Origin: Myxococcota bacterium
GTDB lineage: Bacteria; Myxococcota_A; Bradymonadia; UBA7976; UBA1532
Assembly (NCBI GenBank): GCA_963169045.1
Contig: CAUJDF010000091.1
Span: 62,001 to 126,000 of the forward strand
DNA length: 64,000 bases
Direction of reading: 5' to 3'
The position numbers and the translations under genes were made by a program. Shown piece by piece: positions 36,533 through 45,541 of the stretch (positions are counted from its first letter, which is position 1; each line of letters starts with the position of its first letter). A model generated the notes under the pieces. That model searched no databases, was not told where the DNA came from, and worked only from the letters and a program-made list of their open reading frames with translations.

Positions 36533-37756
36533 TCAGGCGGCGACGTCGCGCTCGAAGTTGCGGCGCAGCGCGGCGATCGCGTCGTCGCGCACGCCGCACG
36601 CCCGGAAGTGCGCCTCCCAGCCGGTGGCGACCGCGTCGCGCAGCTCTTCGGCCAGCGCGCGGGCCTCGGCGGCGTCCAGGCGGAAGCGCTCGAACGCGGA
36701 CAGCGCGTTGCGCAGCGTGGCGGCCTTGCCCTCCGCGCCGGCCTCCATCGCGAGGAACCACGACTCGCCCGTCACGGAGGCGGGCACGACGTCGTAGAGC
36801 GGCGACAGACGCCAGCGGCCGCCGCCGGCGTGCAGGAAGCCGAAGTTGCGCGGGTGGTCGTCGTTGTTCAGCACGAGGATGTTGAAGACGAGGCGCCGGA
36901 ACAGCTCGCGCAGGTCGCGCTCGGGATCGGGCGCGTGGCGCGCGATGGCATCGCACAGGCGCAGGTAGCTCCAGTCGCGGTAGTCGCTCTCGTGCAAGCC
37001 CGTGGCGGTCAGACCCGAGATGAAGCCCACGGGCTCCCCGTCGCCGCCGCGGTCGAAGCGCCGCACGAGGTACACGCTGCGGCCGTCGACCTCGGCGAAG
37101 GAGAGGTCGGGCACGTCGAGGCCGCACCGCTGCGCGAGCGACATGGTGGCGTACTCGAGGCGCGGCTCGTCGCGCGCGTCGAGCGAGAACGAGAACTTGG
37201 CGAGGTGCGGCGCGCCGTTCCAGACGACGGTCGCCTTGGGGCGCGCGCCGCCGAGCGAGGGGCCGTACTCGAGCAGGCGGCGGAGCCTCGACGTCTCTTC
37301 GTCCCGCACGGCGTCCTCGATCGCGCCGGCGCAGGCGGCGAGGTCCGGGCGTTCGGGCTCGGGCGGCGCGAAGCCGCCGGGCGACCACCGGCCCGGAGGG
37401 GCGTCGGGGGAGGGGGCGAAGGCCAGCGCGCCGACGCGGTCCGACGTCGTCGCGGCCACGTACTCGAGCTCGTCGAGCCCGCGTCCGAAGCGCCGGTCGA
37501 GCAGGTACCGGCCCCAGCGGTCGGGGCCGGCGTCCCGGACGCCGTTGAACAGCGCGAAGCCGGACTCGGTCTCGAGCTGCGCGTCGCGCAGCGGGAGCTG
37601 CACGGGATCGAGGGCGTACGCGTCGGGGCGCTCGAGGTAGCGCCGGCCGTAGCGGAATGCGCTGTGCGGGTCGCGACCCGCGGCGGCGTGGCGCAGGAGG
37701 CCGGCGGGCACCCATGCGCCGTCGAGGCGGACCTGCACCACGACCTGCGCGAGCAT
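36533..37756 (-). CDS. hipA: HipA-type serine/threonine kinase toxin
   Basis: 407 residues. The couple/HipA_N part is followed by YGPSLGGARPKATVVWNG (P-loop-like SLGGARPK), LAKFSFSLDARDEPRLEYATM, VRRFDRG and NILVLNNDDHPRNFGFLHAG with the catalytic NNDDHPRN motif, then LSPLYDVVP (DFG-equivalent). E. coli HipA phosphorylates glutamyl-tRNA synthetase and triggers dormancy; other members have different targets, and the target here is unknown. Its ATG overlaps the HipB stop (TGATG). All catalytic residues appear present, unlike the decayed DUF433/DUF5615 pair at 929-1428. Confidence 0.9.
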   Translation of the reverse strand: MLAQVVVQVRLDGAWVPAGLLRHAAAGRDPHSAFRYGRRYLERPDAYALDPVQLPLRDAQLETESGFALFNGVRDAGPDRWGRYLLDRRFGRGLDELEYVAATTSDRVGALAFAPSPDAPPGRWSPGGFAPPEPERPDLAACAGAIEDAVRDEETSRLRRLLEYGPSLGGARPKATVVWNGAPHLAKFSFSLDARDEPRLEYATMSLAQRCGLDVPDLSFAEVDGRSVYLVRRFDRGGDGEPVGFISGLTATGLHESDYRDWSYLRLCDAIARHAPDPERDLRELFRRLVFNILVLNNDDHPRNFGFLHAGGGRWRLSPLYDVVPASVTGESWFLAMEAGAEGKAATLRNALSAFERFRLDAAEARALAEELRDAVATGWEAHFRACGVRDDAIAALRRNFERDVAA

Positions 37757-38106
37757 CAGAAGTCGACCTCGTCGTCGCCGATGGAGGGGGCGCGCCGCTT
37801 GCCGCGGCGGATCTGGCGCACGGCCTCGAGCGCCGCCTCGACGTCGTGCTCGGGCGCGACGACCTCCGCGAAGCCGCGGGCGAGGTTCAGGAGGTCGAGC
37901 GCCTGTAGCAGCAGGCCCACCGACACGGTGGGATCGCCGGCCTCGAGGCGGGCGAGCGTGCGTCGATCGACGCCGGCGCGCCGCGCCAGCTCGGCCGCCG
38001 ACAGACCGCGGCGCTCACGGGCGACGCGCAGATGCCCGCCGAGGCGGCGGAGCTCCTCCCGCGCCTCGACGCTGAGCAGACGAGTCCAGGCGGTCCGCTT
38101 CTCCAT
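37756..38106 (-). CDS. hipB: HipB-type XRE antitoxin
   Basis: 116 residues. An XRE helix-turn-helix spans about 22-78: LGGHLRVARERRGLSAAELA, then RAGVDRRTLARLEAG. The C-terminal tail (LEAVRQIRRGKRRAPSIGDD) is basic then acidic. Start at the ATG with no ribosome site; TACACT lies seven bases upstream. It binds DNA and should neutralise the HipA kinase translated directly after it. The region just upstream carries two inverted repeats that are good operator candidates. Confidence 0.87.
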   Translation of the reverse strand: MEKRTAWTRLLSVEAREELRRLGGHLRVARERRGLSAAELARRAGVDRRTLARLEAGDPTVSVGLLLQALDLLNLARGFAEVVAPEHDVEAALEAVRQIRRGKRRAPSIGDDEVDF

Positions 38107-38334: not shown

Positions 38335-41055
38335 ATGTCGTTCCGCTTCGGCCTGGCAGCATCGCTGCTGGGACTCATGCCGTTCGCCGCCGCGGCGCTG
38401 CCGAACCATTACATGCAGGAAGGCCTGCTGATCGACGCGCAGGGCGCGCCGGTCGAGGGGCGCCACTCGTTCCGCGTGCGGCTGTGGGACCGCGCGCTGG
38501 CGGGGCAGGTGCTCTTCGACGAGGAGCACCTCGACGTCCAGCTGGTCCAGGGCTACTACGCCGTGGCCGTCGGGAGCGTGCGCGCGCTCGATCCGGCGCT
38601 CTTCCAGCGCCCCGACCTGTACCTGGGCCTCACGATCGACGGCGGGCAGGAGCTCGCGCCGCGTGTGCGCCTGACGAAGGTGCCGGCGGCGTTCGTCGCC
38701 GAGGTGGCCGTCGACGCGGTCGGCGACATCCACCCGCGGACAGTGTCGATCGGGGCGCGCCTCGTCATCGACGCCAACGGGCGCTGGGTCGGCGATCCCA
38801 CGGGGCTGGTCGGGCCGGCGGGCCCGGCGGGGCCGGCGGGACCGGCGGGGCCACCCGGACAGGCGGGCGGCGCCGGCTCGCCCGACACGCCGGCGCAGGT
38901 GCTCACGAAGCTGGCGCAGGTGGACGGGGCCAACTCGGGCCTCGACGCGGACCGGCTCGACGGCATCGACTCGAACGGCTTCGTGCGGTCGGGCGCGCCC
39001 ATCGACGCCGCCACCCTCCAGGGCCACCCCGCGGCCGACTTCGTCCGGACAGCGCAGCAGGTCCTGCAGCTGCTCACGACGGTCGACGGCGCCAACTCGG
39101 GGGTCGACGCAGATCGCCTCGACGGCTTCGACAGCGGCGTGTTCGTGCGGACGGCGCAGCAGGTCCTGGAGCTGCTCACGACCGTGGACGGCGCCAACTC
39201 CGGCATCGACGCGGACCGGCTCGACGGCGTCGACAGCACCCAGTTCCTGCAGCCCGCGGCCGCCAACGCGGGCGCCACAGTGATGGGCCTCGTCACCGGG
39301 AACGACGGCCCGAACTCCGGCCTCGACGCGGATCGCCTCGACGGCCTCGACAGCACCCGCTTCATGCGCGTCGACCAGAACACCGGGACCACCGGCGTGC
39401 TCACCGCCGACCGCCTCGAGGTGCACCCGGCAGAGATGGGCGGCACGCTGCGCCCATGGATGGTCGACGGCCTGCGCGTCGGCGCCGCCGGATCCGACGG
39501 TGCCTACTTCGGCCTGAAGGACGAGGGCGACAACCAGGCCGACACGGTGGTCGCGTGGGGCGACGACGTCGGCGACGACCTGCGCTTCATCTTCGGTCGC
39601 TCGGGGGGCGCGGCGGAGGGCGAGGAGCACATGCGCGTGACGTCCAACGGCCTGGTCGGCGTGGCGCGGCCCAACCCCCAGCACCGGCTGGACGTCAACG
39701 GCACCATCGCCGCCACCGCGCTGAAGCTCGAGCCCCTGGCGGCGCCGCCGGCCAACCCCCAGACGGGCATGGTCTACCTCGACTCGACGTCGCTGGGGCT
39801 GAAGATCTACGACGGCCAGCGATGGGCCTCGCTCACCGGGAGCGCCAAGGCCCCGCGGCTCGCCTACGGCGTCTGGGACAGCCTGAACGATGGCAGCGAT
39901 CCCACGACGCGCCTCCCGATCTCGGTCCAGTACGACAAGCAAGAGGCCAATTCGCTCCTGCGCCTCACCTTCAGCTCGAACCTGCGCACCGCCGGTGGCG
40001 TGGGCAGCTGCTGTCGCTGGGGCCTGCGCGTCAACGGACAGCACTGCGCGCCGGCGGTCAACGGCAACGTCTACATCAACCCCGCCGGCAACTATCACCA
40101 GCACCACACGATCAACGGCATCTGCCGCAACATCCCCGCCGGCCGCGTGACGGTCGAGCCTTGGGTGGAGCAGTGCCCCGGCTATGGCAACCACGACTGT
40201 TACACCGGCTGGCAGAGCATGACGTCGCTCATCGTCGAGGAGATCCCCGCCGCCGAGCCGATGACGTTCAACTCCTGGGACGCGCTCAACCTGGAACACG
40301 ACGCCACGCAGGCGCTGCCGATTTCGGTGACGCACAACAAGCGCGATCCCAACTCCCTGCTCGAAGTCATCTTCACGTCGAGCATGCGGACGTATCCCAA
40401 CAATGGCACGTGCTGCCGCTGGGGCCTGCGCTTCAACGGCGCGCAGTGCAACCCGCCGATCAACGGCAACGTCTACATCAGCCCCGCCGGCGATCCGCAT
40501 CACATTCGAACGATCACGGGCATGTGCCCCGGCCTCGGCGCCGGCAACGTGACCGTGCAGCCGTGGGTGGAGCTGTGCCCGGGTTACGGGGTCGTCGATT
40601 GCTACACCGGCTGGCAGAGTACGACGGCGCTCATCGTGCGCGAGCGTTCGCCCGACCGGGTGGGATACGCCGCGGTCACCAACCTGGAGAACGGCAGCGA
40701 CGCCACGAACCCGGTGAACATCTCGGTCAACTACAACAAGAAGGACGCCGACACACCGCTCCGCCTGACTTTCAGCTCCAATCTGCGCACGAACGGCGGC
40801 GCCGGCAGCTGCTGCCGCTGGTCGGTTCGTGTGAACGGGCAGAACTGTCGCGAGCCGGTGAACGGCAACGTCTACATCGAGCCCGGCGGCAACTATCACC
40901 AGCACCGGACGATCACCGGCATGTGCACCGGCGTCGGCGCCGGACCCATCACGGTGCAGCCGTGGGTGGAGCAGTGCCCCGGCTACGGCGTCCACGACTG
41001 CCACACCGGGTGGAACAGCACGAGCTGGCTGATGGTGGAAGAGGGGCCCTTCTGA
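38335..41055 (+). CDS. Secreted collagen-like protein with three CTHRC1-type C-terminal domains
   Basis: 906 residues from an ATG after GAGAGGGGGG. Signal peptide 1-21. Residues 22-155 include LPNHYMQEGLLIDAQG and LVQGYYAVAVGS. A short collagen-like GPAGPAGPAGPAGPPG run lies at about 160-180. Then four NSGxDADRLDGxDS units (about 200-345) as in phage and surface fibres, and a FGLKDEGDNQADTVVAWGD region. Three tandem domains at about 510-638, 644-770 and 778-906 each contain W/TxLNxGxD, L(R/E)(L/V)xF(S/T)S(N/S)(L/M)RT, CCRWxxRxNGxxC, GNVYIxP, ITG(M/I)C, VxPWVExCPGYG and TGWxS. That order matches the C-terminal domain of animal CTHRC1, which also follows a collagen stretch. Six Cys per copy suggest disulfides. 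Probably an extracellular trimeric fibre; function unknown. Confidence 0.85.
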   Translation: MSFRFGLAASLLGLMPFAAAALPNHYMQEGLLIDAQGAPVEGRHSFRVRLWDRALAGQVLFDEEHLDVQLVQGYYAVAVGSVRALDPALFQRPDLYLGLTIDGGQELAPRVRLTKVPAAFVAEVAVDAVGDIHPRTVSIGARLVIDANGRWVGDPTGLVGPAGPAGPAGPAGPPGQAGGAGSPDTPAQVLTKLAQVDGANSGLDADRLDGIDSNGFVRSGAPIDAATLQGHPAADFVRTAQQVLQLLTTVDGANSGVDADRLDGFDSGVFVRTAQQVLELLTTVDGANSGIDADRLDGVDSTQFLQPAAANAGATVMGLVTGNDGPNSGLDADRLDGLDSTRFMRVDQNTGTTGVLTADRLEVHPAEMGGTLRPWMVDGLRVGAAGSDGAYFGLKDEGDNQADTVVAWGDDVGDDLRFIFGRSGGAAEGEEHMRVTSNGLVGVARPNPQHRLDVNGTIAATALKLEPLAAPPANPQTGMVYLDSTSLGLKIYDGQRWASLTGSAKAPRLAYGVWDSLNDGSDPTTRLPISVQYDKQEANSLLRLTFSSNLRTAGGVGSCCRWGLRVNGQHCAPAVNGNVYINPAGNYHQHHTINGICRNIPAGRVTVEPWVEQCPGYGNHDCYTGWQSMTSLIVEEIPAAEPMTFNSWDALNLEHDATQALPISVTHNKRDPNSLLEVIFTSSMRTYPNNGTCCRWGLRFNGAQCNPPINGNVYISPAGDPHHIRTITGMCPGLGAGNVTVQPWVELCPGYGVVDCYTGWQSTTALIVRERSPDRVGYAAVTNLENGSDATNPVNISVNYNKKDADTPLRLTFSSNLRTNGGAGSCCRWSVRVNGQNCREPVNGNVYIEPGGNYHQHRTITGMCTGVGAGPITVQPWVEQCPGYGVHDCHTGWNSTSWLMVEEGPF
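38930..39370 (+). repeat. NSGxDADRLDGxDS coding repeats
   Basis: Four related blocks at spacings of about 105-180 bases encode (V/N)DGxNSGxDADRLDGxDSxxF in the CTHRC1-like protein; the second and third also share the preceding VRTAQQVL(Q/E)LLTTVDGANSG. Such repeats occur in trimeric phage tail fibres and bacterial surface proteins. Confidence 0.75.
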
Positions 41056-41079: not shown

Positions 41080-44000
41080 TCAGCGGACGGTGAGGCGCAG
41101 CGTCGGGACGTCGGGCGAGAAGGTCTGCAGGACGACGTACCAGGTGCCGGCGGCGAGGGGCAGGTCGGTCAGCTCGGGGGCGCCGGACAGCGCGCAGAAC
41201 GACTCGGAGCGGGGGTCGGCGCAGGTGGAGCGGAGGGCGACGGCGCTGCCCGGCGAGGACTCGAAGGTGACGGTGCCGGGGGCGGCGAGGGTGAAGGTGG
41301 CGACGTAGTCGCGGCTGAGCCCCTCGAAGCCGAAGCCGCACGAGTGGGCGAAGCGCAGGACCGGCAGCGTCAGCGGCAGGACCTCGCGCTGGCCCGGCGC
41401 GAGGCGCAACGGCGCGACGCAGGCCGCCGCCTCGGCATTCGGCGCGGCGGCGACGCCGATCTGCAGCTCCACGTCGCGGCGCGCGGCCACGCCGGGGGCG
41501 CGGGCGCGCAGCAGGTGCCGGCCGGCGGTGGCGACGTCGGCGGCGAGCGCCCAGCCGTCACCTTCGGCGATCGCCGCGACGAGCGGCGCCTCCCGGCCGT
41601 CGAGCAGCGCGAGGTCGAGCTCGAGCGGTCCGCCGGCCGGCCGCGCGCGGGCCGTCAGGCGCGTGCCGGCGGCGAGCTCGAGCGCGAACCAGTCTTCGTC
41701 CTCCGGACAGAGGGACAGCGCGTGCGCCCCGACGTCGAGGCCGACCGCGCGCGCCGCGTCGTCGTTGCCGGAGACGCCCTCGAAGGCGTCCGGCGCGCAA
41801 GCGTCGTGCGGCAGGCGCTCCACGGTGAGGGTGTAGGGCGTCGAGAAGCCGGGACGGCCCGACACGACGATGTGCAGCGGGCGCGCCAGCGCGTCGCCCG
41901 GGGCCTGCACCGCCTCGACGCCGAGCGTGCCGTCGCTGCGTCCGAGTGGCTGCGCGAGCGGCGGCCCGGTCTGCAGGTCGAGGCTCAGATCCCCCGCGTC
42001 GGCGTCGTGTCGCAGGACGACGCGGATGCCTTCGCCGGCGCGCTGCTCCACGACGAAGCGATCCTGGGTGCCATCGCACAGGAGCAGGCCGCCGTGGGTG
42101 CGCGCCGCCAGGGTCGGCACGGTGCCATCGAAGCGGTCGCCGGGGCAGCCATCGGCCGGGCGACACAGCCCGTCCTGGCCGCAGGCGCGGTCGCCGGGAC
42201 AGTCTTCGTCCCCGTCGCAGCCGCCGAGGTAGACGCAGCGCCCGCCGTCGCATCGCTCGCCCGGTTGGCAGTGGGCGTCGACCGCGCACACCACGCATAG
42301 ACCGTCGGCCACCGAACACACCGGCGTCCCGTCCGGACAGTCGGCGTCGGCGCGACAGGCCTGATCCAGCACGCAGACGCCCGCACGCGCGCAGACCTGC
42401 GCGCCGGGACACTCGCCGTCGGCGACGCAGTCGGCCGGTGCCGCCGCCGCGCACGTCTCGTCGACACAGGCGCCCTCGTCGCAGTCGGCGTTCTCCGCGC
42501 ACTCGGGCGTGAAGCACCGCCCGTCGTAGCGGCACTGGCGCAGGCCGGCGCAGTCCTCGGGGGCACCGCACTCGGCGGGCTCGCGGCAGTGGCCGTTCGC
42601 CGCGATGCAGATCTGGGCGCCGGGGCAATCGTCGTCGTCGCCGCAGCGCGGGTGGCAGAGGCCGCCGTCGCACACGGCGCCGCCGGCGCAGTCCGCGTCG
42701 CCGTCGCAGGGCGTCCGGGCCTCGACGGTGACCGTCGGTCGCGCGCCGGTCGCGCTCTTCACGATGGCGAACCAGTCGCCCGCCGGCAGCGCGAGGCCAT
42801 CGAGGCGATCGCCGGCGGCGCAGGCCTGCTCGCTCTCGAAGTCGGCGCAGTCGCGGCGCAGCGCGAGCGCGGTGGCGCCGGCGGCGCGCACGCTCACCAC
42901 GGCGGGGCGCGGCAGCGTGAAGCGCACGAGCGCGTCGGCCTCGAGCTCGCCGCTGCACGCGACGGTGAAGCGTTGGATGGGCAGGCTCGCGGGCACCGTC
43001 AGCGGTCGGCCGGGCTCGAGGACCAGCGGCTGCGCGCAGGCCGCCGCCTCGCCGAGCGACCACGCCGCGATGGAGAGGGACAGCGGCACCGCTGCCGCCG
43101 CGCCGGGCGCGCGCACGCGCAGCAGATGGCGCCCGGCCGCGGCGGCGTCGAACGCGAGCTCGGCTTCGTCGCGCACGGAGGCGGCCTGGGCCCCGTCGGG
43201 CCCGAAGAGCGTCAGCTCGGCACCCACGGCCGACGCCCGGGCCGAAAGGTGGGCGCCGGCGGGCAGGTGGAGCGCGAGCCAGTCCTCCTCGCCGGGGCAG
43301 AGCTCGAGGGCGTGCTCGCCGAGCCCGACGGCGGGCGCGCGGGCCCGCTCGTCGTTGCCGAGCGGGCCCTCGAGGGCGTCCGGGATGCACGCGCCCTCGG
43401 GCAGCCGCTCCAGCGTCAGCGTGTACGGGACGGTGAAGCCGGGCCGCCCGGTGACGCGCAGCTCGAGCGCGCGCGGCGCGTCGCCCGGCTGGAGGCCCAC
43501 GGTCTCGACGCCGTGGCGGCCGTCGCTCGCCGAGAGCACCTGCTGCGTGCTCGGATCCACGAGCGCGACGGCGAGGTCGCCCGCCTCCGCGGCGTGGCGC
43601 GCGACGATGCGGAGGCCGGCGCCCGCGGGCTGGTCGAGGGTGAAGCGGTCGGTCGCGCCGTCGCAGAGCACGAGGCCGGTGTAGGTGCGCAGGACGAGCA
43701 TGGCCGAGGCCGGATCGCGGTCGAAGCGGTCGCCCGCGCACGCCGCGCCGGGCACGCACGCGCCGGCCTGGCAGACGCGGTCGCCGGGGCAGTCGCCGTC
43801 GGCGGCGCACGCGCCGTGGAAGCGACAGACGCCGTCGACGCAAGCCTCGGCCGCGGCGCAGTCGGCTTGACCGAGACAGACCACGCAGCGCCCGCCGGCG
43901 ACATCGCAGCGCGGCGCGCCCGCCGGGCAGGCCGCGTCGGCGGCGCACGGACCGTCGAGCACGCAGCCGCCGTCCGCGCAGACCAGGTCGCCGGGGCAGG

Positions 44001-45354
44001 GGGCGGCGGCGTCGCAGGCGGCGGGCGGCGCCGACGCGCAGGCGCGGTCGACGCAGGCGCCCTCGGCGCAGTCGGCGTTCACCTCGCACGCTGGCTCGAA
44101 GCACACCCCGGCGGGCCCGCACAGCTGCAGTCCGGGGCAGTCGTCGTCGCCGACACAGCCTGCCGGCGCGCGACAGTGTCCCGTGTCGACCTGGCAGGTC
44201 TGCGCCCCGCCGCAGTCGCGGTCGTTCGCGCAGCGGGCGTGGCAGGCGCCGCCGTCGCACACGCGCCCGTCGACACAATCGGCGTCGCCCTCGCAGACCG
44301 CCGGCTCGACGCAGATGGCGAGCGCCTGGTCGCAGCGCTGCCGGCCGGGGCAGACATCGGCGCCGACACATCCCTGGACGCAGCGGCCGCCGCTGCACTC
44401 CCGGCCGCCGTCGCAGTCTTCGTTCAACACGCAGACGGGGGGCGGCGGGCAGACGCCCGAGACGAGGTCGCACTGCCGGGTGCCCGCGCAGTCGAGGTCG
44501 CCCTGGCAGCGCTCGGCGCACTGGCCGTCGCCGCAGACGCGCTCGCCCTCGCAGTCGGCGTGGTCGACGCATCGTCCGCTCTCGCGACACACGCCGGCCT
44601 CGCAGCGCTGCAGGCCGGGGCAGTCGGCGTCGCCGCCGCACGACGCCCGGCACTCGCCGTCGGCGCAGGCGCGGCCGTCGTCGCAGTCGTCGGCCCCGAA
44701 GCAGACCGCGGGCTCGGGGCAGCGGCCACCGACACACGCGCGCGTGCCGGCACAGTCGGCGTCGTCGACGCACTCGGGTGTCGCGAGGCAGGCGCCATCG
44801 ACGCAGATCTCGTCGTCGGCGCATCCGGCGTCGCCGGCGCACGGCTCGACACACGCGCCGTCGCCACAGACGCGCGGGGCGTCGCAGTCGTCGGGGCCGA
44901 AGCAGACCTCCGGCTCGGGGCAGCCGCCGTCGACGCAGATGCGCGCGCCGGGGCAGTCGGTGTCTTCGCGGCAGGCGCCGTCGGCGGCGCACTCGCCGGA
45001 CTCGAGGCAGACCTGCCCCTCGGGGCAGGGGCGCAACGGACCGCATCCCACGGGCGCGCCGTCGGGTTCCGGTGCCGCGTCCGCGGCGGCGTCGGATGGC
45101 GCGGCGTCCGCGGCGGCGTCGCCCGTCGGCGGCGGCTCCCCGTCGACGGGCGCGGCGTCGCCCGGCGGGGGCGGCCGGGCGTCGCCCTCGCCCTCGACGC
45201 ACGTCCCGTCAGCCGAACAGACGAGCCCGTCGTCGCATGTGCCGTTGCCGTAGCACGCGGCGCCGAGGAACCCGGCCCCGGCGCTGGCGCCGCCCCCCCC
45301 ACCGTCGTCGCACGCCGCGCACGCGGCGAGCGCCAACCACAGACGCATCCTCAT
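41080..45354 (-). CDS. Giant cysteine-rich lipoprotein with internal duplication
   Basis: 1424 residues from an ATG after GAGGGGGT. Lipobox LAACAAC near residue 15. A PDAA-type linker to about 105. Cys-rich block 1 (about 105-540) has over twenty C(x)DxDC..R.C..G.C units such as CREDTDCPGARICVDGGC. A beta-rich region (540-880) follows, starting near CAGDRFDRD, with GRPGFTVPYTLTLERLPEG. A second Cys block (880-1065) and a second beta region (1068-1424) repeat the same plan, including CPGDRFD and GRPGFSTPYTLTVERLP. The beta parts resemble bacterial pre-peptidase (PPC) domains. No enzyme motif. Surface-anchored structural or binding protein; role unknown. Confidence 0.8.
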   Translation of the reverse strand: MRMRLWLALAACAACDDGGGGGASAGAGFLGAACYGNGTCDDGLVCSADGTCVEGEGDARPPPPGDAAPVDGEPPPTGDAAADAAPSDAAADAAPEPDGAPVGCGPLRPCPEGQVCLESGECAADGACREDTDCPGARICVDGGCPEPEVCFGPDDCDAPRVCGDGACVEPCAGDAGCADDEICVDGACLATPECVDDADCAGTRACVGGRCPEPAVCFGADDCDDGRACADGECRASCGGDADCPGLQRCEAGVCRESGRCVDHADCEGERVCGDGQCAERCQGDLDCAGTRQCDLVSGVCPPPPVCVLNEDCDGGRECSGGRCVQGCVGADVCPGRQRCDQALAICVEPAVCEGDADCVDGRVCDGGACHARCANDRDCGGAQTCQVDTGHCRAPAGCVGDDDCPGLQLCGPAGVCFEPACEVNADCAEGACVDRACASAPPAACDAAAPCPGDLVCADGGCVLDGPCAADAACPAGAPRCDVAGGRCVVCLGQADCAAAEACVDGVCRFHGACAADGDCPGDRVCQAGACVPGAACAGDRFDRDPASAMLVLRTYTGLVLCDGATDRFTLDQPAGAGLRIVARHAAEAGDLAVALVDPSTQQVLSASDGRHGVETVGLQPGDAPRALELRVTGRPGFTVPYTLTLERLPEGACIPDALEGPLGNDERARAPAVGLGEHALELCPGEEDWLALHLPAGAHLSARASAVGAELTLFGPDGAQAASVRDEAELAFDAAAAGRHLLRVRAPGAAAAVPLSLSIAAWSLGEAAACAQPLVLEPGRPLTVPASLPIQRFTVACSGELEADALVRFTLPRPAVVSVRAAGATALALRRDCADFESEQACAAGDRLDGLALPAGDWFAIVKSATGARPTVTVEARTPCDGDADCAGGAVCDGGLCHPRCGDDDDCPGAQICIAANGHCREPAECGAPEDCAGLRQCRYDGRCFTPECAENADCDEGACVDETCAAAAPADCVADGECPGAQVCARAGVCVLDQACRADADCPDGTPVCSVADGLCVVCAVDAHCQPGERCDGGRCVYLGGCDGDEDCPGDRACGQDGLCRPADGCPGDRFDGTVPTLAARTHGGLLLCDGTQDRFVVEQRAGEGIRVVLRHDADAGDLSLDLQTGPPLAQPLGRSDGTLGVEAVQAPGDALARPLHIVVSGRPGFSTPYTLTVERLPHDACAPDAFEGVSGNDDAARAVGLDVGAHALSLCPEDEDWFALELAAGTRLTARARPAGGPLELDLALLDGREAPLVAAIAEGDGWALAADVATAGRHLLRARAPGVAARRDVELQIGVAAAPNAEAAACVAPLRLAPGQREVLPLTLPVLRFAHSCGFGFEGLSRDYVATFTLAAPGTVTFESSPGSAVALRSTCADPRSESFCALSGAPELTDLPLAAGTWYVVLQTFSPDVPTLRLTVR

Positions 45355-45375
45355 GGCAGGACCCCCTCGCGAGGC

Positions 45376-45381
45376 ATCGTA
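45376..45381 (-). promoter_or_regulatory. Candidate -10 element for the Cys-rich lipoprotein gene
   Basis: TACGAT on the minus strand, 21 bases before the ATG at 45354, leaving a short leader with the GAGGGGGT ribosome site. The 187-base divergent spacer shows no equally clear box for the plus-strand gene. Confidence 0.35.
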
Positions 45382-45541
45382 AGCGCCGTTCCGACGCGAC
45401 CGCAACGGCGGCGACGCGCACGTGACCGCGAACCCTGTCCGCGCGGACGGCGCCGGCGAAAGGGAGCGGAATCTGCTGCGGACCTCGCCGGCGGACGTCG
45501 CGTACAGCACGCGTCAGAAGACACCACCGAGGGGGGAGACC

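Follow-up and report, generated by a model that had tools for sequence, protein, structure and literature searches.

A Myxococcota mosaic-fibre-like protein with three CTHRC1 domains predicted to form a single-chain head

Bdellovibrio bacteriovorus has 21 mosaic adhesive trimer (MAT) fibres, the tips of which include TNF/C1q-like domains, one of them glycan-binding (PMC10769870). The TNF-like MAT tip Bd2439 binds glycans between its protomers (PMC10769870), as the TNF-like lectin PLTL does with its sugar (PMC12914763). The C-terminal domain of CTHRC1, a secreted animal protein, was found in bacterial metagenomes by Leclere et al. (2020), sometimes together with collagen; its pairing with collagen was judged to be independent in bacteria and animals, and lateral transfer was favoured for the bacterial and dinoflagellate domains (PMC7058181). 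In the engineered single-chain C1q (5hkj) and APRIL-BAFF-BAFF (4zch), short linkers connect three C1q or TNF domains, which form one trimeric head. In single-chain C1q the N- and C-termini emerge at the base of the trimer, so that linkers of 3 residues suffice (PMC4774423). A natural chain with three tandem domains of the C1q superfamily is HcC1qDC6 from the pearl mussel, which differs from the protein reported here in being an animal protein of 444 aa with canonical C1q domains and without a long fibre part (PMC5519582).

We analysed a gene from a Myxococcota bacterium for which a preliminary description, made from the sequence of the window (the whole stretch of DNA that was analysed, 64,000 nucleotides), had proposed three tandem CTHRC1-like domains at 39864-41055. 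The following features were assigned:

38335..41055, + strand: whole gene, coding for a secreted fibre protein of 906 aa that has three CTHRC1_C domains, from the open frame and Pfam, with a start that agrees with the starts of paralogues in the same genome and a stop codon at 41053-41055
38335..38397, + strand: signal peptide, about aa 1-21, MSFRFGLAASLLGLMPFAAAA, read by eye from n-, h- and c-region, with A-A-A before LPNHY
38386..38804, + strand: N-terminal anchor domain, distantly Bdello_MAT_N-like (NF053851, 18.8-21.4 bits; cut-off 60), with a VIDANGRWVG motif at its end
38803..38883, + strand: collagen-like run of nine Gly-X-Y triplets, aa 157-183, from the sequence (Pfam Collagen 12.4 bits, under cut-off)
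38884..39849, + strand: shaft resembling phage tail fibres, with four DADRLDG repeats and, at its end, 'VNGTI...GMVYLDS...YDGQRW', from PHROG tail fibre families
39856..40251, + strand: CTHRC1_C copy 1, aa 508-639, 82.3 bits; AlphaFold2 pLDDT 89.5, pTM 0.84
40258..40653, + strand: CTHRC1_C copy 2, aa 642-773, 74.5 bits
40654..41052, + strand: CTHRC1_C copy 3, aa 774-906, 79.7 bits

The surroundings of the gene comprise metH, a hipA-like kinase gene (36533-38103, - strand) with an HTH gene in front, forming a hipBA type pair divergent from the fibre gene, and a convergent gene whose 1476-aa product is rich in cysteine, contains DUF7107 repeats and matches PPC weakly (41080-45510, - strand). No functional link to the fibre was found among these neighbours.

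The whole protein matched Pfam PF25815 (CTHRC1_C) with 218.7 bits (E 4.1e-65) in three stretches, the position of the copies agrees with the proposed 39864-41055, and each copy alone reached 74-82 bits at a gathering cut-off of 27, so that a chance match is excluded and the proposed domains are confirmed. The comparison with CTHRC1 was made through the profile in place of the human sequence. Two of the claimed motifs need a small correction: the LN-G-D turn is exact in copy 1 only (LNLEHD in copy 2, LENGSD in copy 3), and the cysteine motif is CCRW, not CCQRW, in all three copies. Each copy contains six cysteines. Protein identity to copy 1 is 62% for copy 3 and 55-56% for copy 2, and DNA identity among the three copies is 65-73%; these values rule out that the triplet arose by recent duplication or as an artefact of the assembly. 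Contamination, which the preliminary description had dismissed because of the divergence of the copies and the codon use of the gene, is ruled out on both grounds (GC3 of the copies 0.89-0.93, close to 0.96 for the nearby metH and 0.97 for hipA) and also by the fusion to an anchor domain common to paralogues of the same genome.

The collagen-like run had been taken as a further likeness to CTHRC1. Nine Gly-X-Y triplets are indeed present, but they score 12.4 bits with Pfam Collagen (cut-off 27.2), and they are kept apart from the CTHRC1_C domains by a shaft about 320 residues long, whereas in CTHRC1 the collagen repeat stands directly before the domain. As the collagen pairing was judged to be independent in bacteria and animals (PMC7058181), the common layout would not amount to homology of the whole protein. 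Metazoan CTHRC1 and the fibre protein share the PF25815 domain, the upstream Gly-X-Y run, secretion and a C1q-like fold, which is our prediction for the bacterial domain and a model from PMC7058181 for CTHRC1; the fibre protein differs in its three copies per chain, its N-terminus and the tail-fibre-like shaft between collagen and domain. This shaft matched tail fibre families in PHROG, with a best E of 5.6e-15 at aa 182-221 and several matches across aa 182-352, and its DADRLDG repeats lie at aa 204, 258, 292 and 331. A triplicated bacterial form had been called unexpected; a bacterial form as such is not, since bacterial CTHRC1 domains were already published in 2020 (PMC7058181). What is added here are the triplet, its setting in a mosaic fibre and the distribution of the domain.

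The N-terminal domain of about 130 residues, which ends with VIDANGRWVG, gave a single NCBIfam match, to Bdello_MAT_N ('mosaic adhesive trimer family chimeric fiber protein'), with 18.8 bits at a cut-off of 60. Similarly, all eight N-domains tested from the same genome matched this family (best E 5.3e-9), all under the cut-off of 60, so the relation to Bdello_MAT_N is a distant one. With a profile of the anchor domain, 22 loci were detected across the genome, of which 17 scored at least 87 bits; 19 paralogue regions were read and 20 paralogues were scanned with Pfam. Collagen was found in nine of the 20 above the Pfam cut-off and more weakly in four more. The C-termini carry RCC1 propellers (L066, L068, L070), an extracellular link domain (Xlink; L056), P-domains (L069, L071), collar-like ends recognised by eye (L062, L064, L069), Cys-rich repeats (L057) or a duplicated unclassified module (L063), and others gave no Pfam match. 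When the fibre protein was compared with its paralogues by BLAST, nearly all similarity lay in the DADRLDG repeats and the N-terminal ~220 aa. Many paralogues of this genome thus have a common N-terminus and swapped C-terminal tips, the pattern that marks the MAT superfamily. The set is a tip-swapping repertoire of about twenty fibres in which the CTHRC1 triplet is one exchangeable tip. Three adjacent paralogues at C42:94704-97962 (L074) are shorter anchor-domain proteins of 324-365 aa with Cys-containing C-termini.

The likeness to the Bdellovibrio fibres of NS74 type (PMC10769870) comprises a conserved and probably beta-rich N-domain after a signal peptide, a shaft, C-terminal tips that are exchangeable and in part TNF/C1q-like, and about 20 members per genome. 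The Myxococcota fibres are unlike them in an N-domain that scores under the family cut-off, in their collagen runs, in the tandem-triplet tip and in the phylum. The anchor domain was found at E <= 1e-10 in 62 of 112 sampled Myxococcota genomes, several of which have 25-31 matches (the upper count meaning at least 31), and in one of 75 genomes of the Achromatium class sample. The MAT-like anchor, the tail-fibre shaft, the repertoire of paralogues and the probable trimer within one chain, discussed below, had all been missed in the preliminary description.

Structure prediction of copy 1 with AlphaFold2, based on an alignment of 20 sequences, led to an all-beta model with a pLDDT of 89.5 and a pTM of 0.84. 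A Foldseek search of the PDB with this single copy ranked PLTL (9ib9, TM 0.71) and the N-domain of BC2L-C (2wq4, TM 0.69) first, and further matches included Pgp3, the Bdellovibrio MAT tip Bd2734 (8okw), BxpB and TNF. The fold check that had been proposed thus came out as expected, and a single copy is predicted to be a jelly roll of the TNF/C1q type. PLTL and BC2L-C are the closest solved folds (TM about 0.7) and are likewise bacterial and extracellular; they differ in having one domain per chain and forming real trimers, identity is about 10-13%, and conservation of their sugar site is hypothetical. A search of a PDB copy for a solved CTHRC1 structure yielded none; the matches obtained look like histidine-rich tag artefacts.

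For the triplet (aa 506-906, 401 aa), AlphaFold2 gave a pTM of 0.82 and a mean pLDDT of 80 (72-76 for the other four models), from an alignment in which the relatives cover copy 1 only, as MAFFT had placed all single-domain relatives there. Before the fold search with the triplet, a match to engineered single-chain trimers had been predicted for the case that the copies pack as a trimer. The top PDB match was the engineered single-chain C1q 5hkj over the full length (E 4.7e-12, TM 0.56/0.56), a moderate match with a TM of 0.56 at 6.9 A, and the single-chain APRIL-BAFF-BAFF 4zch followed at ranks 3 and 4 with TM 0.50-0.57 (best 0.57/0.55). Beyond these two structures, none among the PDB matches listed reached a TM of 0.5 over the triplet query. 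Both are man-made, whereas in the fibre protein such an arrangement would be natural and built from CTHRC1-type domains. The strands of neighbouring copies lie only 5 and 4 residues apart in the model. As AlphaFold2 was given one chain, a trimer interface could be satisfied only inside that chain, which biases the packing towards a pseudo-trimer. With this in mind, the model suggests that the three copies most likely form a natural single-chain pseudo-trimeric head. The triplet was also matched over its full length in BFVD by predicted proteins of giant viruses and uncultured phages that are about 370-425 residues long (A0A3G4ZPZ6, A0A3G5A5N8, A0A3G5A5X5, A0A6J5LW36, A0A6J5RA88; TM 0.53-0.70), so single-chain packing of the C1q/TNF type may recur elsewhere.

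The same three copies could be arranged differently. If three chains trimerised along the whole fibre, copies 1, 2 and 3 would each form a homotrimeric C1q-like head, one stacked on another, and stalk and head would then have one symmetry. The other bacterial relatives read, in which a presumed trimeric shaft ends in one copy, speak for such an arrangement insofar as they make homotrimeric heads the likely ancestral state. However, both termini of C1q-type folds lie at the base (PMC4774423), so that in a stack each linker would have to span the height of a head; with linkers of 4-5 residues three homotrimeric heads appear sterically unlikely, and the triplet pTM of 0.82 and the full-length match to single-chain C1q favour packing in one plane. 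We therefore regard stacking as improbable. The short linkers and the high pTM also speak against the possibility that the copies are three independent, monomeric CTHRC1-like carbohydrate-binding modules which increase avidity in the way tandem CBMs do. Binding modules in tandem are frequent among secreted bacterial proteins, and the single domain of L012 has a weak CBM-like Pfam match of 21 bits, under the cut-off, but C1q/TNF domains are almost always trimeric, and we consider independent modules to be quite unlikely.

A further explanation concerns the origin of the domain, namely acquisition from an animal by lateral transfer, with an action on a eukaryotic partner as that of CTHRC1 in animals. 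In the survey of Myxococcota and other bacteria that had been suggested, PF25815 was detected in nine of 379 genomes of the Myxococcota sample, a count that may or may not include the window's genome, and in no other genome of the window's family. A genome-wide scan outside the phylum detected CTHRC1_C in Candidatus Parabeggiatoa and Achromatium, with up to four loci per genome; in the Achromatium class two of 369 genomes had it. All other bacterial copies read are single, and a second triple tandem was found in none of the genomes searched. An N-domain similar to the anchor precedes CTHRC1_C in L004, L007-L009, L012 and L013. Some bacterial versions are very near to PF25815, as the single domains of family f12 (L007:1483-1923, L008:1480-1923 and L009:1492-1932) reach 132-148 bits compared to 74-82 for the window copies. 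By this measure animal CTHRC1 may have its closest bacterial relatives among them, and a transfer would agree with the view of Leclere et al. (PMC7058181). The f12 domains also have extra cysteines ahead of their CCKRW motif. Against a transfer, Myxococcota and giant sulfur bacteria have diverse and divergent versions of the domain, which argues for its old presence in bacteria (the tree being unrooted and without animal sequences). In this tree of 21 domains, the window copies form one clade (96/90) that is sister to the f12 domains (97/91), and they are part of a bacterial fibre family. An origin from an animal is thus very unlikely in our view. A viral, phage or plasmid origin was rejected, as the triplet gave no match to viral contigs, phages or plasmids. 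Since the three window copies are monophyletic, the triplication took place within the window's own lineage.

Taken together, we read the gene, with a probability of roughly 55%, as encoding a secreted and surface-associated adhesive fibre of the MAT-like mosaic type that ends in a single-chain pseudo-trimeric CTHRC1_C triplet. In such a fibre the conserved N-terminal domain would serve as anchor, the short collagen run and the tail-fibre-like shaft may build a trimeric stalk, and the target would be recognised by the C-terminal tip, which is exchangeable. The three diverged CTHRC1_C domains of one chain would fold into a pseudo-trimer with the geometry of a C1q/TNF head, and this single-chain head would stand in for one that is normally assembled from three separate chains. 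On a trimeric stalk there would then be three complete heads, and every head would have three clefts between its domains, no two of them identical; related bacterial TNF-like lectins bind sugar in such clefts. By analogy with PLTL and Bd2439, which bind sugar between protomers, the head probably binds a glycan or a cell surface. With a chance slightly short of even, the protein would be a natural single-chain heterotrimer of the C1q/TNF type with three different clefts, on a three-headed trident fibre, within a large Myxococcota mosaic-fibre family of which we found no description.

The predicted single-chain head and the fibre repertoire are the new parts, while the function and the oligomeric state of the head are what we infer. 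Engineers join three C1q or TNF domains to obtain defined heterotrimeric heads, and the triplet, if our reading is true, would be a natural bacterial example. In addition, the bacterial single-domain relatives should be tractable for structural and ligand work on CTHRC1, an animal protein of unsettled origin. The idea of mosaic fibres would reach from one predator, Bdellovibrio, to a phylum, where recognition of other cells becomes testable and where the fibre family merits a study of its own.
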